The notes beneath the pieces were generated by a model. That model was not told the DNA's origin, made no database searches, and worked only from the letters and a program-made list of their open reading frames with translations. A stretch of 64,000 nucleotides of DNA, taken from Akkermansia muciniphila (lineage in GTDB: Bacteria > Verrucomicrobiota > Verrucomicrobiia > Verrucomicrobiales > DEV007). The translations under genes were made by a program, and so were the position numbers. Shown here one piece after another: positions 8,160 through 43,493 of the stretch; positions within the stretch are counted from its first letter, which is position 1, and every line of letters starts with the position of its first letter. The stretch spans positions 1 through 64,000 of the forward strand of contig CAMCXS010000005.1 of the NCBI GenBank assembly GCA_945883495.1, read 5' to 3'.

Positions 8160-8261
8160 ACGCAGGGAGTGCGGCACTGACCCCCCTTTCAAGCAATGTC
8201 CATGCCAGATGTGTGACTAAGAAATGATGTAGTGGTTCTGAAGGCTCGGAATTTCATAGGG

Positions 8262-8290
8262 TTGAATTTTAGACGGCGTGAAAATATCTG
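8262..8290 (+). promoter_or_regulatory. weak candidate promoter of the transglutaminase/ATP-grasp cluster
   Basis: TTGAAT at 8262-8267, a 17-base spacer and TATCTG at 8285-8290, in a locally AT-rich stretch, about 38 bases before the ATG at 8328. The -10 match is poor (3 of 6), so this is a suggestion only. Confidence 0.3.
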
Positions 8291-8327
8291 TCATATTTGG
8301 CATCTCCATTCCAAAGCAGCCCTGCCC

Positions 8328-11300
8328 ATGGCCACCCGCATCTCCCTCTGTCACCGAACAACTTATACCTACGACCGCCTGGTCACGCTGAGTCCCCACG
8401 TCATCCGGCTCCGGCCGGCTCCTCACTGCCGGACCCGGATTCTTTCCTATTCGCTGCGGATTGAACCGGAGAATCACTTCTTCAACCTCAATCAGGATCC
8501 ATTTTCGAACTATGAATCGCGTATTGTCTTTAAGGAGCCGATGCGCAAGTTCGAGGTCGTCGTGGATCTGACGGCGGAGCTGATCGCGATCAATCCCTTT
8601 GACTTCTTCCTGGAGAAGTACGCGGAAACCTTTCCATTCGATTATCCAGCGGAGCTTCTTCATGAGCTAAAGCCCTACCTGGAGCCGTCAGAAGGCGGCC
8701 GTTTGCTGAAGAATCTTTTCGTGAACGAATGGCCGCGTAATCCGGTCCGCACGAATGACATTCTGGTTCATTTGAACCAAAGTGTCCAGAAGCTGGTTTC
8801 GTACTCGATCCGCTTGGAACCAGGCGTGCAAACCTGCGAGGAGACCTTAGAAAAGGGTGTCGGCTCGTGCCGGGATTCCGCCTACCTCCTGGTGCAACTG
8901 CTCCGTCACATGGGCTTGGCGGCGCGCTTTGTGTCCGGGTATTTGGTGCAGCTCGTTCCGGATGAAAAGCCAATTGAGGGCCCAGCGGGTCCGGAGAAGG
9001 ATTTCACGGATTTGCACGCCTGGGCCGAGGTGTTCCTCCCCGGCGCCGGTTGGGTGGGCTTGGACCCGACCTCGGGTTTGTTCGCTTCTGAAGGGCACAT
9101 TCCGCTCGCTTGCACGCCGGAGCCATCCAACGCGGCCCCCATCACCGGGGCGGTGGACGAGTGCGAAACGGAGTTCAGCTACGAGAACACCGTCCGCCGG
9201 GTGTACGAAGATCCGCGGGTGACGCGTCCGTACACCCCGGAAGAGTGGAACGCCGTCCAAATGCTGGGCGGAATCGTTGATCAACGCCTGGATGAAGGCG
9301 ACGTCCGGCTCACGATGGGGGGCGAACCGACCTTCGTGTCCATCGACGACATGGACGGTCCCGAGTGGAACACCACGGCGGACAGCCCGTTCAAGCGGGA
9401 GCGCGCCAGTGAATTGCTGAAGCGGCTGCAAAGGATTTTCGCGCCCTGCGGCATCCGCTGGTATGGCGAAGGAAAGTGGTATCCCGGGGAGCCGGTGCCG
9501 CGGTGGGCGTATGGTCTTTTCTGGCGTAAGGACGGCCATGCGCTCTGGGGCCGGCAGGATCTTTTGGCGGATTTGCAAGCGCCGGGGAATTCAAACATCG
9601 AACAGTGCGAAGAGTTCGCTCGCGCCGTCGCGGATCAGCTGCACATCGCGCATGAGTGCGTGCACCCGGCGCTGGAGGACGCGGAGTATTACCGTTGGAA
9701 AGCGGCGACTTTGCCCACCGATGAAGTCATTACGGTGACGGGAGAATCCGATTCTCTGGAGCGGCGGACGTTGGCGGCGTTGATCCGGCGTGGGTTGGAT
9801 GTGCCTTCGGGATTTGTCATTCCGGTCTATTTTGATGAGATTTATGGCGGCTGGCGCGGTGGGCGTTGGTACTTCCGGCGCGGGCACCTTTTTCTGATTC
9901 CGGGGGCGTCGCCTCTCGGATTCCGCTTGCCGCTGAATTCGCTGAATCGGGATCGCCCACTCGATTTCTTGCCCGAGCATTCTCCTCTGGAAAGTTTGCC
10001 GCCGCTGCTGCAATTCCCAGCGGACGCGATTCCGCGCCGGGCACCAGATCCGGACACCCATCCGTCGCTTGACCCAGCGAATTGGAGCGGCTTGGGAGAA
10101 GGCGCCGCGGGGGACGCGCAGTGGATCAGCGGTGCCGGAACCGGCGGCTGGCAAGACTCTGACGGATATGTGCTGACGCCGGAAGGTGTGCAATACTGGA
10201 TGCCGCGGACGGCACTTTGCTTTGAGATCCGGGAGAAACGCCTTCACGTCTTCTTCCCGCCCTGCGGATTGCTGGAGCGTTACCTAATTCTCCTGGCGGT
10301 GGTGGAACGCGTGGCCGCGCAGTTTGGACTGCCGGTGGTGATCGAAGGCTACGAGCCGCCTCGCGATCCCCGCATGGAGCAGCTCAAGGTGACGCCGGAC
10401 CCGGGGGTGATCGAAGTGAACATTCATCCGGCTCGCAATTGGGAGGAGTTGGTCCGCAATACCGATATCCTCTACCACGAAGCGCGGATGTCGCGTTTGG
10501 GTGCGGAGAAGTTCATGCTCGACGGCCGCCACACCGGAACGGGTGGAGGCAACCACGTGGTGATCGGCGCGGAACATCCGTCCTCCAGCCCGTTCCTGCG
10601 CCGCCCTGGGTTGCTGCGCAGCCTGATTACCTATTGGCAGCATCACCCCGGCCTTTCGTTCCTGTTCTCGGGGATGTTTATCGGGCCCACCAGCCAAGCG
10701 CCGCGGGTCGATCAAGTGATGGAAGACCGCTTGTTCGAGCTCGACATCGCGTTCCAACAACTGCCGGAGACGACCGATGCTCCCTGGATCGTGGACCGCA
10801 CGTTGCGCAACTTGTTGACCGACCTGACCGGAAACACGCACCGGACGGAGTTTTGCATCGACAAACTCTATTCGCCGGACTCGGCTTCGGGGCGGTTGGG
10901 CTTGTTGGAATTGCGAGCCTTCGAAATGCCGCCGCATCCGCGAATGAGCTTGGTCCAGGCGTTGCTGGTGCGGGCGTTGGTTGCGAAGTTCTGGGATCAG
11001 CCGTATCACCACAAACTGGTGCGCTGGGGAACCACGTTGCACGACCGGTTCCTTCTGCCCGAGTTCACCTGGCAGGACGTCAGCGAAGTTTGCATGGAGT
11101 TGCGGGAGGCGGGCCTTCCTTTCGAACTCGATTGGTTGAAGCCGTTCTATGAATTCCGCTTCCCTCTTTACGGACGTGTTCAACACGGCGGAGTGGAGTT
11201 GGAAATCCGCTTTGCCCTCGAACCTTGGCACGTTTTGGGAGAAGAACGGACCGCCGCAGGCACGGCCCGCTACGTGGACTCGTCTCTGGAACGTCTCCAA

Positions 11301-11816
11301 GTCAAGGTGCGCGGAGCGGTGGAGGGCAAACACATCATCACCTGCAACGGGCGCCGTCTCCCGCTGTTCCCCACGGGGACAAACCAAGAATACGTCTCCG
11401 GCGTCCGCTACAAGGCGTGGTCGCCTTACTCCGCGCTGCACCCGTCGATCGGCGAGCAAACGCCGCTCTGCTTCGACATCGTGGATGAGCGGAACCGGAA
11501 ATCCTTGGGCGGTTGCGTGTATCACGTGAGCCACCCGGGCGGACGGGCCTACGAGACGTTCCCGGTGAACGCGTTGGAAGCGGAATCGCGCCGGATCAGC
11601 CGGTTCTGGGAGTGGGGGCACACACCCGCGGAAATGGAATCTCGCGCCACGAGCCTGGCCTACGCCCGGATCAATGGCCGCCGCTTGGAGCGGGTGGGGC
11701 CGCAAGGGATCACCTTCATCCCGCCGGAGGAGCCGCTTCCGGAATTTCCCGCGACTCTGGATCTGCGATTTTCCCCGGAACCAGTGAGCTCTGGGGGGCG
11801 TTATCCAGTGCGCTGA
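8328..11816 (+). CDS. transglutaminase-like protease fold fused to DUF2126 (putative amidoligase)
   Basis: 1162 residues from ATG 8328; the upstream in-frame extension is AT-rich and lacks family sequence. Residues 1-90 are the beta-sandwich found before bacterial transglutaminase-like domains (ISLCHRTTYTYDR). Residues about 145-265 form the thiol-protease-like core with a complete triad: Cys181 (GVGSCRDSA), His230 (DLHAWAEVF) and Asp246 (GLDPTSG). From about 310 onward is DUF2126, beginning RLTMGGEPTFVSIDDMDG and running to the C-terminus. Aravind and colleagues grouped DUF2126 with COOH-NH2 ligases of the glutamine-synthetase type, linked to ATP-grasp and transglutaminase genes. Its substrate is unknown. 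It is the first gene of a three-gene plus-strand cluster. Confidence 0.9.
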   Translation: MATRISLCHRTTYTYDRLVTLSPHVIRLRPAPHCRTRILSYSLRIEPENHFFNLNQDPFSNYESRIVFKEPMRKFEVVVDLTAELIAINPFDFFLEKYAETFPFDYPAELLHELKPYLEPSEGGRLLKNLFVNEWPRNPVRTNDILVHLNQSVQKLVSYSIRLEPGVQTCEETLEKGVGSCRDSAYLLVQLLRHMGLAARFVSGYLVQLVPDEKPIEGPAGPEKDFTDLHAWAEVFLPGAGWVGLDPTSGLFASEGHIPLACTPEPSNAAPITGAVDECETEFSYENTVRRVYEDPRVTRPYTPEEWNAVQMLGGIVDQRLDEGDVRLTMGGEPTFVSIDDMDGPEWNTTADSPFKRERASELLKRLQRIFAPCGIRWYGEGKWYPGEPVPRWAYGLFWRKDGHALWGRQDLLADLQAPGNSNIEQCEEFARAVADQLHIAHECVHPALEDAEYYRWKAATLPTDEVITVTGESDSLERRTLAALIRRGLDVPSGFVIPVYFDEIYGGWRGGRWYFRRGHLFLIPGASPLGFRLPLNSLNRDRPLDFLPEHSPLESLPPLLQFPADAIPRRAPDPDTHPSLDPANWSGLGEGAAGDAQWISGAGTGGWQDSDGYVLTPEGVQYWMPRTALCFEIREKRLHVFFPPCGLLERYLILLAVVERVAAQFGLPVVIEGYEPPRDPRMEQLKVTPDPGVIEVNIHPARNWEELVRNTDILYHEARMSRLGAEKFMLDGRHTGTGGGNHVVIGAEHPSSSPFLRRPGLLRSLITYWQHHPGLSFLFSGMFIGPTSQAPRVDQVMEDRLFELDIAFQQLPETTDAPWIVDRTLRNLLTDLTGNTHRTEFCIDKLYSPDSASGRLGLLELRAFEMPPHPRMSLVQALLVRALVAKFWDQPYHHKLVRWGTTLHDRFLLPEFTWQDVSEVCMELREAGLPFELDWLKPFYEFRFPLYGRVQHGGVELEIRFALEPWHVLGEERTAAGTARYVDSSLERLQVKVRGAVEGKHIITCNGRRLPLFPTGTNQEYVSGVRYKAWSPYSALHPSIGEQTPLCFDIVDERNRKSLGGCVYHVSHPGGRAYETFPVNALEAESRRISRFWEWGHTPAEMESRATSLAYARINGRRLERVGPQGITFIPPEEPLPEFPATLDLRFSPEPVSSGGRYPVR

Positions 11817-11887
11817 CGGGAGCTTACGCGTTTCCCGGCCTTGCGTTTGGCGCTGGCGCGGACTAGGGGTGGGCCGCGATAAGGGGC

Positions 11888-14452
11888 ATGGAAACGGCAG
11901 AGGCAAAGCGCATGCCCGGGGAATTCTACCGGCCGGGACCGTCCGCTTACGACGAACTGTTACACAAGGACGGGACCGTCCGGGAGCCGTGGCAAGAATG
12001 GGCCATGCTGTGCCGTGAGGGTGGGGAGAAGATTTACCGGGCCTGGAACAAGGCGACGATCCGATTCGTGCGGGAGATTGGGGTTTCCTACTCGGTGCAT
12101 CGGGCGGCGGGCAAGCGCGGCCCCTGGAGCTTCGATCCGGTGCCGTGGATTTTCGGAGCATCGGAGTGGGCCGGGATCGAGGCGGGCATTGCGCAACGGG
12201 TGCGGCTCTGTTCGGCCATTCTCGCGGATCTCTACGGGGACCAAACCCTGATCCGGGAGGGCATTTTGCCGCTGGAGATCGTTTACCGGGATCGCGGTTT
12301 TTTGCGGCCGTTCGTTCTGGACCCGGAGCGGAACCGGAAGGGAGGGCGAGGCGGAGGCATTCCGGGGCTGGTCAATTTTGGAAAGAAAACGGCGCCGGTG
12401 CTGGGGCTGAGCCTAGCCGCCGTGGATTTGGCACGTGGGCCGGAAGGGCGGATGTGGGTTGTCAATCAGCGGACGGATTGTCCGTTCGGTCTCGGGTTCG
12501 CCTTGGAAAACCGGAGCATTCTGAGCCGGGTATTGCCAGCGACGTTCCAGCGTTGCCAAGTCCATCGATTGGCGAACTTCTTCCGGACATGGAGAGGCGA
12601 GCTAGAGAGCAATCCGTCGCAGGGCAGAGAAGTGCGGGTGGTAATTTTGGCCGCCGAGGGCCAGGCCCAGGAGTTTGAGACCGCCTACCTTGCCAACTAC
12701 CTGGGCTACGTGCGGGTGGTGCCCGGAGATTTGACGGTGCGCGACCAGAAAGTTTGGCTGAAGACCCTGGGGGGCTTGCAACCGGTGGACGTGATTTGGA
12801 GGGCGATGCCCGGCCGGATGCTCGATCCGTTGGAGGCGGAAGCGGGCAATGTGTTCGGGATCCCAGGCTTGTTTCAGGCGATGCGGGCAGGGAACGTCAC
12901 CGTGATGAATCATCCCGGAGCGGGTGTGGTGGAAACGCCGGGCCTGCATCCCTTCCTCCCGGCAATTGCCAAAGCGCTGCTCAGCGAGGAACTCATCCTC
13001 CCGACGGTGGCGACCTGGTGGTGCGGACAGCCAAGGGAGTTGCAGCACGTTCTGGCGAATCTTCCGAAAATGGTGATCAAGGGGATCGATATCCGGTCTG
13101 GCTTCCAGACCATCTACGGCAGTGATCTTTCCGACTCCAGGTTGCAGGAATTGCGCAACCGCATTCTCGGCGATCCAGGGCTCTATGTGGGCCAGGAGGA
13201 GGTGCACTTTTCCACGATTCCCTGCCTCCAAGGGGCTGCTTTGGAACCGCGTTCCGCGATTCTCCGCGCCTATGGTTTGCAAACGCGTTCCGGTGAGGTC
13301 CACGTGCTTCCCGGCGGACTGGCTCGCGCTTCCTCGGAGCAGAGCTTCATCGTTTCCACCTTGGCCGGCGGAATTTCCAAGGACGTGTGGGTGCGGTCGG
13401 ACACTCCGCCCCCGAGACATGTGACTCTCTGGAAGCCAGAGGGGGTTCCCACGGAAGAGACCAATCCAAGTCATATTCCGAGCCGGACCGGGGAGAACTT
13501 GTTTTGGACCGGACGTTACGCGGAACGGGCGGACGTGACCGCCCGCTATCTGCGCCGGATTCTACGCAACCGGGTGGAAGGATTTGAACAGGACTCGGAG
13601 CTCGAGGAGCGGCACGAAAGCTTCCTGTTCCATGCGTTTTGCGAGGTGATGCTGATCGCGCCTCGCCTTCATCACGGCGGAAAGGATCCGCTCTTGGAAC
13701 TGGCTTCGCTGCTGGAGGATGAAACCCGGTTGGGGAGTTTGCCGGCGGCGCTCGATGCCTTCCGCCGTGCGTCCCATGAGATTCGCGATGTCTGGTCCGC
13801 GACCAGCTTGCAGGCGATCGAGGCTTGCGCGGATGGTTGGATGGACGCTCGGGGGGCGGCGAAGTCGGTCTTCGACTACTATGCGCCACTGGACCGCCTG
13901 CTGCTCGACCTGACTGCGTTCGTTGGTCTTTCCTTGGAGAGCATGACCCGGGATGCGGGCTGGTGCCTTTTGGATGCCGGACGGCGGATTGAGCGGGCGT
14001 TGCTGCTCGTGGAATTGTTACAACACGGCTTGGCGCGTCCCGTGGAACCGGAAGTCGCCTCCCTGGTTTGCGAATCGGTGTTGGTGATTGCGGACAGCTT
14101 GGTGACGTTCCGGCGTCGCTACCGGCGTGAGTTGCGGCCGCACCGGGTCATTGATCTCCTGATCTACGTGGAGAACAATCCGCGGTCGCTGTCGTATCAG
14201 TTTGACCGTTTGGAGCAGTTTCTCGCGCTCTTGCCCAGAGACGGGGGAGGGAAGGGGAACAATCCGTTGAACCTGATTCGGGAAGCGCGCAAAGATCTCC
14301 AACGATTCACCCCGGAGCAGCTCTCGGCTCAAGATGCGACGAACGGGTCGCGGCCGGACCTTCGCGACTTGCTGAAGCGGCAACGCAAGCGCCTGCTGAG
14401 GCTTTCTGACGAACTCACCATGGCCTACTTCAGCCATTCTTTGCGCCGCTGA
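11888..14452 (+). CDS. circularly permuted ATP-grasp fused to alpha-E domain
   Basis: 854 residues. Residues about 60-500 are a circularly permuted ATP-grasp ligase: AAVDLARGPEGRMWVVNQRT, GFALENR, VMNHPGAGVVETPGL, TVATWWCGQPRE, MVIKGIDIRSG, YVGQEEV and LPGGLARAS follow the family's order. From about residue 527 (SRTGENLFWTGRYAERAD) to the end is the all-helical alpha-E (DUF403) domain. In many genomes the two parts are separate neighbouring genes; here they are fused. ATP-grasp enzymes of this kind are predicted to form amide bonds on peptides; no product is known. The sequence AAGGGG lies directly before the ATG, one of few purine-rich leaders here. Confidence 0.92.
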   Translation: METAEAKRMPGEFYRPGPSAYDELLHKDGTVREPWQEWAMLCREGGEKIYRAWNKATIRFVREIGVSYSVHRAAGKRGPWSFDPVPWIFGASEWAGIEAGIAQRVRLCSAILADLYGDQTLIREGILPLEIVYRDRGFLRPFVLDPERNRKGGRGGGIPGLVNFGKKTAPVLGLSLAAVDLARGPEGRMWVVNQRTDCPFGLGFALENRSILSRVLPATFQRCQVHRLANFFRTWRGELESNPSQGREVRVVILAAEGQAQEFETAYLANYLGYVRVVPGDLTVRDQKVWLKTLGGLQPVDVIWRAMPGRMLDPLEAEAGNVFGIPGLFQAMRAGNVTVMNHPGAGVVETPGLHPFLPAIAKALLSEELILPTVATWWCGQPRELQHVLANLPKMVIKGIDIRSGFQTIYGSDLSDSRLQELRNRILGDPGLYVGQEEVHFSTIPCLQGAALEPRSAILRAYGLQTRSGEVHVLPGGLARASSEQSFIVSTLAGGISKDVWVRSDTPPPRHVTLWKPEGVPTEETNPSHIPSRTGENLFWTGRYAERADVTARYLRRILRNRVEGFEQDSELEERHESFLFHAFCEVMLIAPRLHHGGKDPLLELASLLEDETRLGSLPAALDAFRRASHEIRDVWSATSLQAIEACADGWMDARGAAKSVFDYYAPLDRLLLDLTAFVGLSLESMTRDAGWCLLDAGRRIERALLLVELLQHGLARPVEPEVASLVCESVLVIADSLVTFRRRYRRELRPHRVIDLLIYVENNPRSLSYQFDRLEQFLALLPRDGGGKGNNPLNLIREARKDLQRFTPEQLSAQDATNGSRPDLRDLLKRQRKRLLRLSDELTMAYFSHSLRR

Positions 14453-14473
14453 CGCCCTGTTGCACCGCCCGCC

Positions 14474-15364
14474 ATGCCCGAGGAATTCCGTTATCGCGTC
14501 ATCCACGAGACCTCGTATCTCTACAGCGGTCGCATCGACCTCTGTCACAGCCTCTGCTGTCTCTGTCCGCGTGATACGCCATTTCAAACCCGGGCCAGTC
14601 ATTTCATGGCGATCGAGCCGCGTCCTGAGGTGATTGGCGATCATGTCGATTTTTTTGGGAATCACCGGAACGTCTTTTCCGTTCAGCATTCCCACGAAAA
14701 GCTCCTGGTCCGCTCCACCAGTGAAGTGCGCATCTCGACTAGCCCCCGTCCCTGGGAAGGCGAGTTTGAGGATCTGCCCTGGGAACGGGTTGCCGCCGAG
14801 TTGCCGGCCCTGCGAGGGGAGGCGACGCGCGCGATCGGCGGGTTCCGGCTGGCTTCTCCGGCTACCGCCCCGCTAGCGGAGTTGCGCGACTACACGCTGG
14901 CGTCGTTTCCGGCCGGCACGGGGGTTTTTGCCGGTTGCCAGGCGTTGATGGATCGGGTTCACCGGGATTTCACTTATTCTCCGGGGAGCACGGCGGTGCA
15001 CACCAGCATCCAAGAGGTGTATTCGGGGCGCCAGGGCGTATGCCAAGATTTCGCCCATCTCCTGCTTTCGGGGCTGCGCAGCATTGGACTGTCGGCCCGC
15101 TATGTCAGCGGATACCTGGAAACTCTGCCGCCGCCGGGCAAGCCGAGGCTCCAGGGCGCCGATGCCTCCCATGCCTGGATCGATGTCTATGTGCCCGGAT
15201 TGGATTGGGTGCCGTTCGATCCGACGAACAATCTTTGCCCCGGCCCGCGTCACATCGTCGCGGCCATTGGACGGGACTACTTCGACGTGCAACCGTTGCG
15301 CGGGATTTTCCTGGGCAGCGGCAGCCAGTCGCTCGGGGTCCGGGTCGATGTGGCGCGCTCGTGA
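14474..15364 (+). CDS. transglutaminase-like cysteine protease-fold protein
   Basis: 296 residues, 21 bases after the ATP-grasp gene. It has the same N-terminal beta-sandwich (YRVIHETSYLYSGRID) as the large protein at 8328, then a transglutaminase core with a complete triad: Cys190 (GVCQDFAH), His233 (ASHAWIDVY) and Asp249 (PFDPTNN). No signal peptide is seen, so it probably acts in the cytoplasm with its two neighbours. Family members are predicted peptidases or amide-forming enzymes. The window thus holds two such domains, one free and one fused, in one operon, which suggests they process the product of, or supply substrate for, the ligases between them. Confidence 0.9.
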   Translation: MPEEFRYRVIHETSYLYSGRIDLCHSLCCLCPRDTPFQTRASHFMAIEPRPEVIGDHVDFFGNHRNVFSVQHSHEKLLVRSTSEVRISTSPRPWEGEFEDLPWERVAAELPALRGEATRAIGGFRLASPATAPLAELRDYTLASFPAGTGVFAGCQALMDRVHRDFTYSPGSTAVHTSIQEVYSGRQGVCQDFAHLLLSGLRSIGLSARYVSGYLETLPPPGKPRLQGADASHAWIDVYVPGLDWVPFDPTNNLCPGPRHIVAAIGRDYFDVQPLRGIFLGSGSQSLGVRVDVARS

Positions 15365-36420: not shown

Positions 36421-37968
36421 TCAGCCGACTGGCGACTGAGTCCGGACGTTGTTGACCATGCGCCAGATGCCACGGGGGTTGTGGTTTTTGAGCTCTTCAG
36501 GCAGGAGCATTTCGGGAACGTCCTGGAAGCAGAAGGGCCGGACGAAGCGCAGATACGAATTGAGCCCGATTGAGGTGAAAAAGGAATGAGTTGCGGCGGG
36601 GTAGGGGCCGCCGTGGTGAAGGGAGGGACAAACTTCCAGGCCGGTCGGGTAGCCGTTGATGACGAGCCGGCCGGTTTTGGTTTGGAGGACATCGATGAGT
36701 TCCCGGTATTCTTCCAAGTCTTCTGGCGTGCCGTGGACGGTGGCGCTGAGGCTTCCGTCCATGCTTTCCGCGAAACGGACCATTTCGGAGGGTTCGGGGC
36801 AACGCAGAACGACGGACGAGGGACCGAAGACTTCCTCGCGAAGAACTTCGCGATGCTTGAAGTAGGTTTCGCTCGCGGTTTCGAAGAGGACGGCGGCGGC
36901 TTGGCCTTTGGATAGATCGGCACCCGAGGCTTTGGCGGTGACGAGAACCTCTGACAAAATTTGAATGCGGTTCACTCCTTGCTCGTAAGCTTGGTGAATG
37001 CCGCGGTGCAGCATGCTGGCGGGCGCGACGGCGGCGACGCGGCGGCCGGCTTCGTTGAGGAAGAGATCGAGTTCCGCTCCGCCTTGCGCCAAAACCATGG
37101 CGGGGTTCGTGCAAAACTGGCCAGTACCCAAGGTGAGCGAGGCGACGAAGCCCTCGGCAATCTGCTCGGCGCGGGTCGCGAGGGCGCGGGGGAGGAGGAA
37201 AACGGGATTGAGGCTGCCCATTTCCGCGTAAACAGGGACTGGTCGGTCCCGTTTGGCGGCAACGTCGAAGAGCGCGCGTCCGCCACGCAAGGAACCAGTG
37301 AAGGCAACGGCTTCGGTCAGTGGGTGGGCGACCAAGGCGGTGCCGACTTCGTTGGAGCGGCCGTGGACCATTGCAAACACGCCGTCCGGCAGTCCGCTTT
37401 CCAGGGCGGCACTTTTCACGATGGCGGCGAGTCGGTCACAGGTATGCGGGTGCGCCGGGTGCGCTTTGACGACCACGGGGCAGCCGACAGCGAGGGCGGA
37501 AACGGTGTCCGTGCCGATCACGGAAATGGCGAACGGAAAGTTGCTGGCGCCGAACACGACAACTGGACCAACTGGGTGGTGCATGAGGCGGATGTCCGGC
37601 TTGGGAGCGGGCTTGCGGTCGGGGATGGCGGTATCGATCCGGGCATCAACCCAGGAACCCTCGCGCAACATGGCCGCGAACATGCGGGCGCCGTTGCAGG
37701 CGCGAACGAGTTCCCCGGGAAGACGAGGGCGGCCCAGGCCGGTCTCTTGATCGGCCAGCTCGATGAGATCCTCTGCTGCGGCTTCGGTTCCGGCGGCGAT
37801 GCGCTCAAGGAAGAGGGCGCGGGTTTCCACCGGGGCATTCCGGTAGGTGCGGAAAGCATCGGCTGCGGCGCGAAGGGCGGCGTCAATCTGCTCGGAGGTG
37901 GCTTCGGGGAATTCACCGGGGAGCGTTTCGCCGGTGCGGGCGTTGTGGCTTTGGAAAACTGGGCTCAT
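36421..37968 (-). CDS. alpha-ketoglutarate semialdehyde (2,5-dioxovalerate) dehydrogenase
   Basis: 515-residue aldehyde dehydrogenase that oxidises 2,5-dioxopentanoate to 2-oxoglutarate, the last step of sugar-acid and pentose catabolism. Features of this subfamily are VVFGASNFPFAISVIGTDTVSALAVGCPVVVKAHPAHPHT, VYAEMGSLNPVFLLP and GTGQFCTNPAMVL. The catalytic Cys is 286 and the general base Glu is 249. Length fits. It lies 30 bases after a DHDPS-like gene in the same direction. In B. subtilis and pseudomonads a DHDPS-family dehydratase precedes this dehydrogenase, so the pair looks like the end of a sugar-acid pathway. Confidence 0.88.
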   Translation of the reverse strand: MSPVFQSHNARTGETLPGEFPEATSEQIDAALRAAADAFRTYRNAPVETRALFLERIAAGTEAAAEDLIELADQETGLGRPRLPGELVRACNGARMFAAMLREGSWVDARIDTAIPDRKPAPKPDIRLMHHPVGPVVVFGASNFPFAISVIGTDTVSALAVGCPVVVKAHPAHPHTCDRLAAIVKSAALESGLPDGVFAMVHGRSNEVGTALVAHPLTEAVAFTGSLRGGRALFDVAAKRDRPVPVYAEMGSLNPVFLLPRALATRAEQIAEGFVASLTLGTGQFCTNPAMVLAQGGAELDLFLNEAGRRVAAVAPASMLHRGIHQAYEQGVNRIQILSEVLVTAKASGADLSKGQAAAVLFETASETYFKHREVLREEVFGPSSVVLRCPEPSEMVRFAESMDGSLSATVHGTPEDLEEYRELIDVLQTKTGRLVINGYPTGLEVCPSLHHGGPYPAATHSFFTSIGLNSYLRFVRPFCFQDVPEMLLPEELKNHNPRGIWRMVNNVRTQSPVG

Positions 37969-37998
37969 GAAATGGAAAAGGGGCTGGTGGTGGATGAG

Positions 37999-38910
37999 TT
38001 ATTCCCCGGCGAGCAGGGTCTGGGCGGCTTCGCGGACGCGGCTGAGGTAACGTTCGTTCACCGGCGTCAACATCGCGGGGATTGGCCCCATCTCAGCGAT
38101 GCCGGCAAAGGTAAGGGCCTCGTGCAGCACGGAAACCGGCGATTGTTTGCGGCGCAACTCCTCAAGCGGCCGGAAAATGCCGCGAATCTCCTCGGCCTCG
38201 GCCCATTCCCCCCGTCGCATCGTTTCGAGGAAACACTGGGAGAGCCGGGACGCGACGCAAGCGCAACCGGAGGCAAAACCGCCCACTCCGAATTCGCGGA
38301 AATGCACGATGGCGACCTGCTCACCCAGTCCGCTGACGATGAATCGGGGATCGATGGTATCGACGAGCTCTTGAAGGAGCGGGTCGCTGGCGGGTTCGTC
38401 GAGCTCGACTTGGTAGAGAATGAAAGAGACTTGGCCCGCGTTGACCAAGCGGCGCAGGATGGGCGGGGTGAGGACGCCGGGATCGGTAACCGCCAGCACG
38501 GCGGGCCGTTCCAATTGCGAAGTGATTTCCCCGACGGCGCGCTCGAAGCCGGAAGCGGTGACGGCATCGGCTGGGGGCAAGATGTGGACGGTGGGGAAGG
38601 AGGTGCCGCGGAGGACTTCGAGCTGCTCCATCATGAGGCCGTGGGAAGGGCCGATGGAGGGGATCACGACAGTGTCCGGACCGGCGATTTGCTCAAGCAT
38701 GGCGAGCAGCGGGGCGTATTCGCTGGGGCGGAGGTGTTGCAAGAGAGCGTTGCTGCCGTAGAGCAGGACACGAATGCCGCCCGCTTCGATGGAACGGATC
38801 AGGCGTTGGTTTTGCTCCGGGCTGAGCGCGAGATCTTGGGCGCGGGCCAAAGGCGGTAGGGCGACGACGGAATGGGTAAAAAGTTCGGGCTGGACCGGCA
38901 GCGGATTCAT
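37999..38910 (-). CDS. DHDPS-superfamily protein lacking the Schiff-base lysine
   Basis: 303 residues, (beta/alpha)8 barrel of the dihydrodipicolinate synthase/N-acetylneuraminate lyase type. Family landmarks are IRSIEAGGIRVLLYGSN, VIPSIGPSHGLMMEQLEVLRGTSFPTVHILPP, FIVSGLGEQVAIVHFREFGVGGFASGCACVAPR-like (here ASRLSQC). At the position of the catalytic Lys (GIKEA in DHDPS) it reads SFILYQ, with Leu165. The usual active-site Tyr position reads VLAVT, with Ala140. Both are read directly from codons. It is in an operon with a semialdehyde dehydrogenase, where an active dehydratase would be expected. Possible roles are a changed chemistry or a regulatory barrel. Confidence 0.8.
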   Translation of the reverse strand: MNPLPVQPELFTHSVVALPPLARAQDLALSPEQNQRLIRSIEAGGIRVLLYGSNALLQHLRPSEYAPLLAMLEQIAGPDTVVIPSIGPSHGLMMEQLEVLRGTSFPTVHILPPADAVTASGFERAVGEITSQLERPAVLAVTDPGVLTPPILRRLVNAGQVSFILYQVELDEPASDPLLQELVDTIDPRFIVSGLGEQVAIVHFREFGVGGFASGCACVASRLSQCFLETMRRGEWAEAEEIRGIFRPLEELRRKQSPVSVLHEALTFAGIAEMGPIPAMLTPVNERYLSRVREAAQTLLAGE

Positions 38911-39065: not shown

Positions 39066-40541
39066 TTAGGGATTATTGGATAGAATGAAGTTCAGGTTGG
39101 CTTCAACTAAATCCCCCATGTTCTCGCAATGGCGGAAAACGTTGCTTTGGTGGTGCTCGTTCAACCCTTCGCGCAGTTGCGCGATTTTGACCTCTGAGGA
39201 CAATGTCTGTGACTTCATCGCCCGAAATAGGGCGTTGAGCCGCTGGTGTTCCACCTGAAGCCGCCGAGCAATGAGGCTGCGCTCTTCCACTTGGTATTGC
39301 CGCATCGTCTGGTAGTTCAATACCTCGGTGCAGAGCTTCACCACCATGGCATTCTCGCGGAAGAACTGCGGCAGATAAATGTGCAGATCGCCTTCGTAAG
39401 ATTGCTGGTCGAAGTCGATCGCCCGGACACGAAACTGCACTTCCTCGAAGTCAGGGGTGATATCGACCACATAGTTGTAGGTCCGCATATCCCCGAGCAG
39501 GCGAATGAAGCAACGCTCTGTGAACTTCACGAACTCCTTGGCGACTCGAACTCGGTTGAGATGACGATCATCGAGATGCTCCCGGATGAAGGTATCCCCT
39601 GGCACCCCGGCGATGTGCTCCTCGATCAGCGAATTCTGGTGGACAAGGTAATTGATGCGGTTTGGCGAGAGGGCGTGTTCGAGTTCCAGACCAAAGATGC
39701 GGGAAGCGTCCGGCACTTTTACATAGAAGTGATCGTAATTGTCGTTGAACTGGTTGACGACACGGACCCGGAATGGCTTGGAGTTTCCGAATTCGCAGTA
39801 ATCGACTCGCTCAATATAGAGGTGTTCGAGGGAGTCGTTTTTGCCAGTTTTGAGTTGCGAATAGATCCGGGAGAGATCGCTATTCAGATCTTTGGTGCGC
39901 TCCGGGTCGTAGGTGACTGTTTTCCAAAGGGAGTCGCCGCCTTCCGGAGTCTGGCAGGGAAACATGCCAGTGAACTCCAGGAGCATGTCGTAGGCCGGCG
40001 GGAATTCAAAGGAGCGCCCGAATTCCGCGAGGAACGCGGTTAGATCGGGGCCGATTTCGTAAAACGCCTTGCGCTGCGAGATCTGATTGTAGCGGATGTT
40101 CGACTCCGGACGGGCAGCGTCAGCATCGGCGGCGGACTTGCGGGCGGCGGCCTTCTCCCGGCGGTAGAGAGTGGAGAGGATCTCGGCGAGGACGGTCCGC
40201 TTGTTCCCGGTCGCGATTTTGGAAGTTTGCGAGCCCGGGAGCCAGAACGCTCCGCAGAAACCACAGTGAAGAATGTGGAAGGAGAGGCCGCGGCCGGCTA
40301 GGGCAGGGCGGAGCAGATTCGCGCATTCCAAACAGGTCGAGGCCGCTTGAGACGGAGCGATCCCTGGGGTCCGGTCCGGTGGTGGGGTCTTCGGTCTCCG
40401 ATGCCGGTTGTCTGTGAGCCAGCGCCAGTAGTGAAATGAGGGGAACCACTCCCCGCCGCAAGAGGAACACGGCCAAGTGGCCGCCTCAAAGGGGCCGGTC
40501 GGTGGCTCGAGAGTTGAGCCAGCGCATCCGGGGCAAGTCAC
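39066..40541 (-). CDS. double TFIIB-type zinc-ribbon protein with a kinase-like domain
   Basis: 491 residues from GTG 40541. Two zinc ribbons: Cys3, 6, 25, 28 and Cys70, 73, 93, 96, each with CxxC...CGG/CGA-x-W as in zf-TFIIB. A basic helix follows (about 115-145). Residues about 245-410 look like a protein-kinase fold: Lys275 (YVKVPDA), Glu286 or Glu288 (GLELEHAL), hinge-like SLIEEHIAGVPG, catalytic-loop-like GDMRTYN with Asp351 and Asn356 at the D-x4-N spacing, and DFD at 376-378. The C-terminal helices may form a coiled coil. I do not know a named family. It is the last gene of the tyrA-aroA run, 3 bases after the preceding stop. Confidence 0.72.
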   Translation of the reverse strand: MTCPGCAGSTLEPPTGPFEAATWPCSSCGGEWFPSFHYWRWLTDNRHRRPKTPPPDRTPGIAPSQAASTCLECANLLRPALAGRGLSFHILHCGFCGAFWLPGSQTSKIATGNKRTVLAEILSTLYRREKAAARKSAADADAARPESNIRYNQISQRKAFYEIGPDLTAFLAEFGRSFEFPPAYDMLLEFTGMFPCQTPEGGDSLWKTVTYDPERTKDLNSDLSRIYSQLKTGKNDSLEHLYIERVDYCEFGNSKPFRVRVVNQFNDNYDHFYVKVPDASRIFGLELEHALSPNRINYLVHQNSLIEEHIAGVPGDTFIREHLDDRHLNRVRVAKEFVKFTERCFIRLLGDMRTYNYVVDITPDFEEVQFRVRAIDFDQQSYEGDLHIYLPQFFRENAMVVKLCTEVLNYQTMRQYQVEERSLIARRLQVEHQRLNALFRAMKSQTLSSEVKIAQLREGLNEHHQSNVFRHCENMGDLVEANLNFILSNNP

Positions 40542-40544
40542 CAG

Positions 40545-42116
40545 TTACGAGTCTCCTTGTTGCTTCTTCTTTTCTTGAATGAACAGAAACACAGTAACGC
40601 CGACAAGGCAGACTGCAACAACTCCCACAATCATGGGCAAAGGCGAGCTTGCTTTCTGCGGTGGGAGCGCCCGGACGGGCTTGGGTTTTTCGATCTCTCC
40701 CGATTCGTCCGTTGTCGCCGCAGCCGAGTTGGAGCGTTTTGCCGCGGCGGTTTTACGTTCGGCCTTGCTTCCCTTGGCGGGCTTGGCCGAGTCTTCGGCG
40801 TTGCTCTTGTCAGTGGCGGAAGAGGCGGTGCGCTGCATGACCAGGGCGTCTAGGGCATCGTCTCCGGAACCTGCTGGTGTTTCGCTAGGGCTGGCTGGAT
40901 CATTGGCGGCCTTCTTCGCTGCCTCCATTTCAGCCAACTTGGCTTGGTTGGCCATCTTTTGGACCCGGTCATCGAGTTGCTGCTGCAAGTGAGCCAAGAT
41001 CGTGGGCCGCTCGGGTGGAGCGGCGGACGTTGTCGCAGAGCTTTTTTTCGTGGAAGGTGTGGTCTTGGCCTTCGCTTGGGAGAACTTGGCGCCGCCATTT
41101 ATGTTGGCGGCCGCGGTCAGGGCGGTCTTCGCTTCGTCGAGTTTTCCTGCGTAAACCAATTCCCCGGCATCGTAGAATGCCTTCGCTTGCGCATCCAATG
41201 CCGCTGGATCGAGTTTGCCGACGCGGTCAATTTCTTTCCGGACGCGGGCGATGGCTTCGTTGATGCTCGCCTCCGACTTCAGATCGACGGTAAGCCAAGT
41301 GATCTTCTTTGCTTTTTCAGCTTCGATTTGAGCTTTGAATCGGGCAGCGGCGGCGTCTAGTTCCTGTTGAGCGGCATCCCGAGCAGCGCCCGTGAGCGAC
41401 GCCATACCTTTTGCGTTCTGGGTTGCGTCGTATTTTGCGTATTCCAGTTCCTGGGTGAGTCGCTGGCCGTAGGCCGGGAGCAGGCTCTTGGCATCGGTGA
41501 TGGCGACAGGAAGAGCCAAGGTCCCTGGATAGGCTTTCTCGATCATCTCGAACTGGCGGAGGGCTCCGAGAAGATTGCGACCGGCAGCGGCTTGCCTCAT
41601 CAGGCGGAGGGCGGTCGCCGCCTCAAGATTGGGAGCGTGAATGGCTTGCTGCTCGGGGGTAAGCCAAGTTCCGCGGAACCGGAGTTCTCCGGATTTGATT
41701 CTCTTCAATTCGCCGTCCAGCGAATCGCGGATGCCCTCGATTTCTGCCCGATATTTGCTCGCTGGATATTTGGCGAGGAACTCGTCGATTACTTTGAGTC
41801 GCTCCTCGTACCCCTTGGCGGGCAGGCCATCTGGAGTGGTCTTCAACGGGAGGCACGCTTCACGCTCGACATCTTCTGGCGTTGTTTTCTCGATTCGATC
41901 GATGCTGACGCGGTTGATTGCTCGCTTGTCCTTTATGGTGCCGACCAGCACCTGAACCCGAACCATGTCGGGGGTCTCTTCAATGATGGTACCTGAGACA
42001 ACATCACCGGATTTCAGATAAACTTTGTCGGCCCAAAGCAATGAGGGCGACAGCAGGACTGCACAGATGAGCGTCTGGCGGCAGATCGAGGATGGGAGTT
42101 GGCGGCCTGGGGACAT
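40545..42116 (-). CDS. exported, C-terminally anchored helical protein of unknown function
   Basis: 523 residues. Signal peptide (ICRQTLICAVLLSPSLLWADK), then a short beta-barrel-like domain (VYLKSGDVVSGTIIEETPDMVRVQVLVG...INRVSIDRIEK). Residues about 90-340 are helical, with TPR-like spacing (YEERLKVIDEFLAKYPASKYRAEIEGIRDSL). A long low-complexity region rich in Ala, Lys, Ser and Thr follows. One membrane helix lies at the end (MIVGVVAVCLVGVTVFLFI) with a KKK tail. So the bulk is periplasmic, tethered at the C-terminus. It starts 81 bases after cmk-plsC and is directly followed by the zinc-ribbon/kinase-like gene. Confidence 0.8.
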   Translation of the reverse strand: MSPGRQLPSSICRQTLICAVLLSPSLLWADKVYLKSGDVVSGTIIEETPDMVRVQVLVGTIKDKRAINRVSIDRIEKTTPEDVEREACLPLKTTPDGLPAKGYEERLKVIDEFLAKYPASKYRAEIEGIRDSLDGELKRIKSGELRFRGTWLTPEQQAIHAPNLEAATALRLMRQAAAGRNLLGALRQFEMIEKAYPGTLALPVAITDAKSLLPAYGQRLTQELEYAKYDATQNAKGMASLTGAARDAAQQELDAAAARFKAQIEAEKAKKITWLTVDLKSEASINEAIARVRKEIDRVGKLDPAALDAQAKAFYDAGELVYAGKLDEAKTALTAAANINGGAKFSQAKAKTTPSTKKSSATTSAAPPERPTILAHLQQQLDDRVQKMANQAKLAEMEAAKKAANDPASPSETPAGSGDDALDALVMQRTASSATDKSNAEDSAKPAKGSKAERKTAAAKRSNSAAATTDESGEIEKPKPVRALPPQKASSPLPMIVGVVAVCLVGVTVFLFIQEKKKQQGDS

Positions 42117-42197: not shown

Positions 42198-43493
42198 TCA
42201 CGACGAAGTGTCCGGCAGTGAGAGCGAGGCGATGGCGTCCATCACACGGGTGGAAATCGCCTGCTGGCCGGTTTTGCCTTTAGTCGCCAGTTCCTCAGTG
42301 GAGAAATAGATGGGGTGACCGAAAACGACGTGGATTTTGCCGTCCATCCTGGGCAATTTCCGATTTCTCGGATACGCCTCATAGCTTCCGAAGATTCGCA
42401 CCGGGATGACGGGGACCCCGGTTTTGGCGACGAGCATGCCGACTCCGCGTTGCGCCGGCTGCAGGGAACCGTCCGGGGTGCGGGTGCCCTCGGGGAAAAC
42501 CACCATTTTCTTGCCTTCCTTGACGAGCTGCATCGAGATGCGCAGGGAAGAGAGTTCCGCGTTGTCTCGATCCACCGGCACCGTGTTCAGTCGTGGGAGC
42601 AGCCAAGTGAACAGAGGCGGTTTGAAGAGCGTGTTGCGGGCGAGGTAATAAATGGGTTCTTCCAGCGCGGTCCCGACGAGCGGCGGATCGAGGAAACTGG
42701 CGTGATTCGAGGCGAAGTAGGCGCCGCCGACAACCTTGGCCCGTTCCGCGTGGTGGACTTCCATGCCGTAAGCGGCGCGGAAGAACGCTTTAGACAAAGT
42801 ATAGGTGAGCCAGTAAACCCAAGACATCGTGGGCCGCTCCGGCTCCCGACGTCTGACACCCTCGACGTGGAGGATTTGGATCACTCGATCCGCGACTTGC
42901 GGTAGTGTCAGATAGGATGTGTCGATCCGCATCGCGTCCTCCGCCGTACGCAACGGCGCCACGTCGCGGGAGGAGTCCTTGAGATCCCGGAGCCGGATGT
43001 CGTCATCAATGCCTTGGGCCTTGCGGCGGCGTTCCCTGACCTCTGCGGAGGCGTCCAGGTAAAATTTGTAGGGCGTGTCCGGTATCACCACGGTGCCGAT
43101 ATCCCGGCCTTCCATCACCAAATCGCCCATTGAACGGAATCGCTGCTGCTCGGCGACGAGGGCGCGGCGGACTTCTGGGATGGCGGAGATGGAGGAAACT
43201 GCGCCGTTGACCTCTTCGCTGTGCATGAGGGCGTCGGCCACATCCCGGCCGTCGATCCGGATCACGGAGGAGCGATCCTTCAACGCGCACTCGAAATGGC
43301 TGCGCCCGAGCAGTTCCAGCACTGCGGCGGAGTTGGCGGGATCGATTTGATTTTCGAGGACCCACCAAGTGAAGGAGCGGTACATCGCCCCTGAGTTTAC
43401 GAAGAGGAACCCGAAGTGCTCCGCAACGCGGCGTGCCACGCTGCTTTTGCCAGAGGCGGCCGGGCCGTCGATGGCGATGGCGACGTATTGCAT
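42198..43493 (-). CDS. cmk: cytidylate kinase fused to 1-acylglycerol-3-phosphate acyltransferase
   Basis: 431 residues. Residues 1-215 are cytidylate kinase: P-loop GPAASGKSS, NSGAMYRSFTW, EGRDIGTVVIPD, RRKAQG. It phosphorylates CMP and dCMP. Residues about 225-431 are a PlsC acyltransferase: NHASFLDPP (the H-x4-D motif), FPEGTRTPDG, PVIPVRIFGS. It makes phosphatidic acid. The reading frame runs through both without a stop, so the two enzymes are one chain, connecting CTP supply and phospholipid synthesis, which needs CTP for CDP-diacylglycerol. It follows aroA by 25 bases. Confidence 0.94.
   Translation of the reverse strand: MQYVAIAIDGPAASGKSSVARRVAEHFGFLFVNSGAMYRSFTWWVLENQIDPANSAAVLELLGRSHFECALKDRSSVIRIDGRDVADALMHSEEVNGAVSSISAIPEVRRALVAEQQRFRSMGDLVMEGRDIGTVVIPDTPYKFYLDASAEVRERRRKAQGIDDDIRLRDLKDSSRDVAPLRTAEDAMRIDTSYLTLPQVADRVIQILHVEGVRRREPERPTMSWVYWLTYTLSKAFFRAAYGMEVHHAERAKVVGGAYFASNHASFLDPPLVGTALEEPIYYLARNTLFKPPLFTWLLPRLNTVPVDRDNAELSSLRISMQLVKEGKKMVVFPEGTRTPDGSLQPAQRGVGMLVAKTGVPVIPVRIFGSYEAYPRNRKLPRMDGKIHVVFGHPIYFSTEELATKGKTGQQAISTRVMDAIASLSLPDTSS

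Follow-up and report, generated by a model that had tools for sequence, protein, structure and literature searches.

An apparently undescribed, widespread bacterial family with a predicted kinase-like fold, joined to a pair of zinc ribbons in one genus

The described kinases that lie closest to the protein reported here are those of the PI3K/PI4K/PIKK branch (PF00454), the bacterial HipA Ser/Thr kinases (PF07804) and the Bud32/Rio/ePK group, and the counterparts of its N-terminal part are the small proteins of the Zn_ribbon_TFIIB type (PF13453). According to a 2007 account of the microbial kinome, PI3K and alpha kinases relate to other kinases only via structure and key motifs (PMC1821047). 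The KINtaro catalogue holds 72 kinase-like families, 32 of which standard databases do not link to the superfamily; the kinase-fold AMPylases and glutamylases named in it are classed as pseudokinases (PMC10870513).

Here, we describe a gene from a 64,000-nucleotide stretch of DNA, which we refer to as the window, that encodes a protein with a double zinc ribbon and a kinase-fold domain. The open reading frame occupies positions 39066..40541 on the minus strand and specifies a product of 491 aa from a GTG start codon, the start and length being identical in two sister genomes (G001 and G002). The initial annotation of this gene proposed a two-part architecture of zinc ribbons and a kinase fold, and both parts are borne out: the ribbons through a standalone homologue (L028) and the fold through a confident structural model, the listed PDB matches of which are all kinases. 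A comparison of the three sister genomes indicates purifying selection on both parts, stronger in the kinase part (dN/dS of 0.06–0.10, compared with ~0.17 for the ribbons, values that are rough because dS is near saturation). The gene product apparently belongs to a bacterial enzyme family that is both widespread and highly conserved and has a protein- or lipid-kinase-like fold, which we provisionally regard as undescribed, as judged against the Pfam, NCBIfam, PADLOC and PHROGs libraries; no description of it was found in the open-access literature searched. We consider it likely that the C-terminal ~340 residues form an active kinase-fold phosphotransferase of a widespread family of lone proteins acting on one dedicated substrate; its fusion to the ribbons is confined to a single genus among the genomes sampled.

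Predicted fold and relation to known kinases

The kinase-fold domain comprises residues 153–491 (39069..40085, minus strand), and its AlphaFold2 model has a pLDDT of 92.6 and a pTM of 0.90. In a Foldseek search of the PDB with the domain model, all of the listed matches were kinases or kinase-domain proteins (probability near 1, best E value 1.7e-4), including Vps34, IRE1, Bud32, CDPK1 and the ThurKC lanthipeptide synthetase, with modest TM-scores of at most ~0.45. The best match from VIA-align was Vps34 (Z of 13.1, 4.3 Å, 271 of 343 residues), followed by PI4KIIIb (Z of 12.6), Tel1 (12.6), p110gamma (12.4) and SMG1 (11.9), where a Z of 7–8 is typical for models without a clear match; the best 50 rows are all PI3K, PI4K or PIKK catalytic domains, which leaves room for other kinase families and other PDB families further down the ranking. 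The full-length model agrees in both programs, and the matches in a viral structure library are also mostly kinases. A confident model with a non-kinase fold was looked for; instead, every PDB hit listed for the model is a kinase, and the earlier suggestion of a kinase fold stands. In keeping with the Protein kinase-like (PKL) superfamily, the predicted fold is bilobal and carries Lys, Glu, Asp, Asn and Asp in order. In the model the lobe arrangement is closer to that of the PI3K/PI4K/PIKK branch than to that of classical Ser/Thr kinases.

At the sequence level no kinship to any kinase was detected. The domain finds no match in the Pfam, NCBIfam, PADLOC or PHROGs libraries, the family profile finds none among PDB chains, and hhalign scores against the PI3K/PIKK, Pkinase, APH and HipA profiles equal those of unrelated controls. 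For PI3K kinship the power of this last comparison was low because the profile was built from no more than three verified sequences; each letter of the Vps34, p110alpha and mTOR reference sequences was checked against PDB chains. Neither APH (PF01636) nor Pkinase (PF00069) gave a profile match; with hhalign the former did no better than unrelated controls and the latter reached a probability of 0.1, and the HRD and DFG motifs of Pkinase are absent. HMMER and hhalign agree in returning no sequence-level kinase match, as would be expected if the domain were not a kinase fold and its motifs coincidental, but the hits listed for two confident models are all kinases and the motifs lie in the correct order on the correct elements; we regard such a coincidence as very improbable. 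The isolation of the family is the situation described for PI3K and alpha kinases (PMC1821047).

The best whole-domain structural match is to the PI3K/PI4K/PIKK kinases (Vps34, PI4KIIIbeta, p110gamma, Tel1, SMG1 and mTOR), with Z of 11.4–13.1, and local similarities accompany it. The PI3K-type loop GDRHxxN and the family loop GDMRxxN have in common the G-D lead-in and the D-x-x-x-x-N spacing, giving a shared pattern GD-x-[RH]-x-x-N. Following the beta-3 Lys, Vps34, p110alpha and mTOR have D/E at +3 and R at +6, so that K-x-x-acidic-x-x-R is shared with the family, and both lack a classic Gly-rich loop. Nevertheless, there are clear differences. In the family DFD replaces DFG and MR replaces RH, and both the DLRQD block and the accessory FAT or C2 domains are missing. 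PF00454 (PI3_PI4_kinase) does not match the family: no member exceeded the gathering score in scans of 40 and 79 members, a search of Bacteroidota yielded only short sub-threshold hits, none of them at the family, and the hhalign probability is 0.1. In terms of PF00454, the PI3K-type overall fold is supported by the best 50 VIA-align rows, whereas DMRxxN and DFD occupy the places of DRHxxN and DFG. Owing to the shared structure and local patterns, together with the DFD and DLRQD differences, we regard the family as kinase-like and nearest to the PI3K branch, without assigning it to PF00454.

Two further groups deserve comparison. HipA proteins, like those of the present family, are bacterial and have a kinase fold, and their catalytic Asp and Asn lie five residues apart, as they do here. 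However, the HipA_C profile (PF07804) finds no match, the hhalign probability is 0.0, and the family has no conserved adjoining partner gene. Foldseek links the family to the Bud32/Rio/ePK group through Bud32 (E value 5e-5, full-length model) and through IRE1 and CDPK1 (domain model), although PF00069 does not match, hhalign gives 0.1, and the Gly-rich loop, HRD and DFG are all missing.

Catalytic residues and proposed chemistry

The initial annotation listed K275, E286/E288, D351, N356 and DFD376–378 as following the order of kinase catalytic residues, and each was found in its place. The candidate ATP-binding beta-3 lysine, Lys275 (39717..39719), stands at the end of model strand 267–274 within an invariant K-x-x-D278-x-x-R281 motif, and the candidate helix-C glutamate, Glu288 (39678..39680), lies within helix 278–290. 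The putative catalytic loop D351-M-R-x-x-N356 (39474..39491) directly precedes a strand in the model, and the putative metal-binding motif D376-F377-D378 (39408..39416), which replaces DFG, comes after strand 367–373; all four features are on the minus strand, and the order of the motifs on the secondary-structure elements is as in kinases. A Gly-rich GxGxxG loop is absent from the domain. K275, E288, D351, M352, N356, D376, F377 and D378 are identical in 155/155 aligned homologues, E286 is Glu in 152 of the 155, and R353 is Arg in 151 and His in four. Loss of Asp351, Asn356 or DFD among homologues was sought, and the residues proved to be kept in all 155. Invariant positions account for just 35 of the domain's 343 columns, so the catalytic set is conserved far beyond chance.

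We infer that the domain binds ATP–Mg and is catalytic. The nucleotide would be held between the two lobes, where K275 would pair with E288, D351 would serve as the catalytic base, and N356 and D376 would ligate the metals, while R353 may stand in for the catalytic-loop Lys of PKA or the His of the PI3K DRH motif. The gamma-phosphate would then pass to a dedicated substrate. Several non-catalytic blocks are strictly conserved as well, namely an FGNSxPFR loop, an EEHIxGxPGD hinge and a QYxxEER helix, a pattern that points to a single dedicated substrate and away from a broad signalling role.

Two other uses of the fold have to be weighed. Pseudokinases occur among sequence-orphan kinase-fold proteins, and the domain could be a scaffold that binds ATP without catalysis, its conserved residues being structural or allosteric; we think this distinctly improbable, as invariance of every canonical catalytic residue over 155 sequences down to 39% identity is atypical of pseudokinases. 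Alternatively, the fold may have been turned to other chemistry, such as AMPylation in the manner of SelO or glutamylation in the manner of SidJ, by which a target is modified without phosphorylation. Kinase-fold families with such activities exist, as the KINtaro paper relates (PMC10870513), and the present family is equally divergent in sequence, has DFD for DFG and lacks the Gly-rich loop. Every member of the canonical K, E, D, N and D series is nevertheless intact and invariant, whereas the alternative-activity families cited there are classed as pseudokinases, and we hold this reading to be improbable. It had originally been suggested that the protein might phosphorylate or AMPylate a target. 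From the intact residue set, phosphotransfer appears to be the favoured half of that suggestion; AMPylation is not specifically indicated, and is not favoured because the named AMPylases and glutamylases are classed as pseudokinases. An active phosphotransferase is therefore the reading that we retain.

Zinc ribbons and their fusion

The N-terminal part of the protein contains two candidate zinc ribbons on the minus strand. The first, C3-x2-C6 ... C25-x2-C28-GGEW, spans residues 3–28 (40458..40535), and the second, C70-x2-C73 ... C93-x2-C96-GAFW, spans residues 70–96 (40254..40334). The pattern CxxC-x(17–20)-CxxC with a trailing aromatic is thus present twice, the second CxxC of each ribbon being followed by GxxW, and all eight cysteines are kept in both other genomes of the genus of the window. 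Against Zn_ribbon_TFIIB (PF13453) the N-terminus itself scores 10.9 bits, where the Pfam cut-off is 22. The standalone homologue L028, which is related to the window protein with an E value of 4.5e-17, matches the same model in two stretches (E value 1e-18, 66.8 bits), and the ribbons can be assigned to the TFIIB type through this intermediate. The description of the eight cysteines as two TFIIB-type CxxC...CxxC ribbons therefore agrees with their presence, their conservation in the genus and their kinship to L028.

The N-terminal part is homologous to this standalone member of the small Zn_ribbon_TFIIB proteins, but differs from such proteins in being joined to a kinase-fold domain, and in one genus only: among the genomes of the order of the window that bear the kinase domain, the fusion occurs solely in G000, G001 and G002. 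Three relatives (G018, G027 and G037) have ribbon-type proteins at loci apart from the kinase gene, that of G027 having lost most of its cysteines. It would appear that in the genus of the window the enzyme was joined to a protein with two TFIIB-type zinc ribbons that already existed. The statement that no described family has this combination of parts agrees with the four profile libraries, but a single genus has the two parts combined, and the kinase domain itself is widespread as a standalone protein. Further apparent fusions at six loci (L005, L006, L032, L033, L014 and L009) were rejected, their long upstream frames appearing to be noncoding or antisense and those scanned having no Pfam match; an N-terminal tblastn match in Hymenobacter (L077) was apparent only and not real. 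The pair of ribbons is probably a recognition or docking module. That the ribbons recognize the target of the enzyme, as was first proposed, is speculation.

Distribution, gene neighbourhood and significance

A scan of genome contigs recovered at least 587 stretches related to the kinase-fold domain, the best 80 of which come from Verrucomicrobiota, Bacteroidota and one Fibrobacteres MAG. Even draws of genomes gave 36 carriers of the domain among 194 Verrucomicrobiota and 38 among 148 Bacteroidota, and the 17 genomes listed for one genus (g19) in the order to which the window belongs all lacked it. It is usually a separate protein of ~345 aa, commonly in single copy per genome, and these standalone proteins are apparently cytosolic. 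Sequence identity within the family is ~45–60% across the two phyla, with the 155 aligned members reaching down to 39%. In the tree the phyla separate almost cleanly, which fits mainly vertical descent, and the window protein falls inside Verrucomicrobiota on a longish branch. Carriage by mobile elements was ruled against, since searches of phages, plasmids and viral contigs found no homologue. One Bacteroidota genome has a second, divergent kinase-fold copy (L152; G322:C3:105233-106210), which has 39% identity to the window protein and a very long branch but retains the catalytic residues.

In the window the gene order is tyrA-aroA-cmk/plsC-PTPDL-kinase gene. The PTPDL family protein (40545..42116, minus strand; NF041881, 5.5e-66) lies immediately upstream, 3 nt from the kinase gene, and has a signal-peptide-like N-terminus and a C-terminal hydrophobic segment; further upstream is a cytidylate kinase–acyltransferase fusion, cmk-plsC (42198..43493, minus strand; PF02224, 1.1e-59; PF01553, 7.5e-24). 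Adjacency of PTPDL and the kinase gene is kept in G001 and G002 and was not found in other loci, and the full run from tyrA is preserved in the only sister genome whose flank is long enough to show it. The initial annotation placed the gene at the end of an operon; the gene run with cmk-plsC is present, but an operon end is only plausible, because the 155 nt before the next same-strand gene downstream hold no terminator-like site that could be seen on the minus strand. Elsewhere in the window we observed, on the plus strand, a three-gene run at 8232–15364 predicted from sequence to encode two transglutaminase-like proteins, one large and one smaller, with another large conserved protein listed between them; a 632-aa open frame at 36961–38859, antisense to aldehyde-dehydrogenase-like and DHDPS-like genes and probably a by-product of base composition; and a 747-aa open frame at 13–2256, taken from the list of open reading frames.

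Assigning function by association with neighbours failed, as no neighbour is conserved between lineages among 106 loci with the kinase gene called. In one Verrucomicrobiales clade, a methyltransferase gene lies immediately downstream of the standalone kinase gene at 10/10 loci (L035:7011-7616, L036:7014-7592 and eight more). Its product resembles the lipid N-methyltransferase models OlsG (3.9e-33) and PmtA (1.8e-13), neither of which reaches its NCBIfam cut-off, and this lineage-specific neighbour is the sole, weak hint towards lipids across the neighbourhoods. As a special case of the phosphotransferase that we favour, the enzyme might be of PI3K/PI4K type and phosphorylate a small molecule or a lipid, its substrate being a polyol or the headgroup of a membrane lipid. 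The best structural matches are lipid kinases, the OlsG/PmtA-related neighbour is constant within its clade, and plsC belongs to the same gene run in the genus of the window. However, these neighbours are lineage-specific and no lipid gene is conserved beside the family elsewhere, the PIKKs, which share the fold, phosphorylate proteins, and PF00454 does not match; a lipid or polyol substrate is possible, although we think it unlikely.

Between roughly a fifth and a quarter of the sampled Verrucomicrobiota and Bacteroidota genomes carry the protein, yet the searched libraries name no domain in it. A more far-reaching proposal, which we put forward as doubtful, is that this is a widespread bacterial PI3K/PI4K-type family with a conserved substrate, be it a lipid headgroup, a polyol or a core protein, which would form an unrecognized branch near the ancestry of the eukaryotic phosphoinositide kinases and PIKKs and would in one genus have gained a zinc-ribbon targeting module. 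A kinase family of this prevalence would represent a gap in the picture of bacterial signalling or metabolism that is open to direct testing, and its PI3K-like placement, if true, bears on the origin of the PI3K-type kinase branch.
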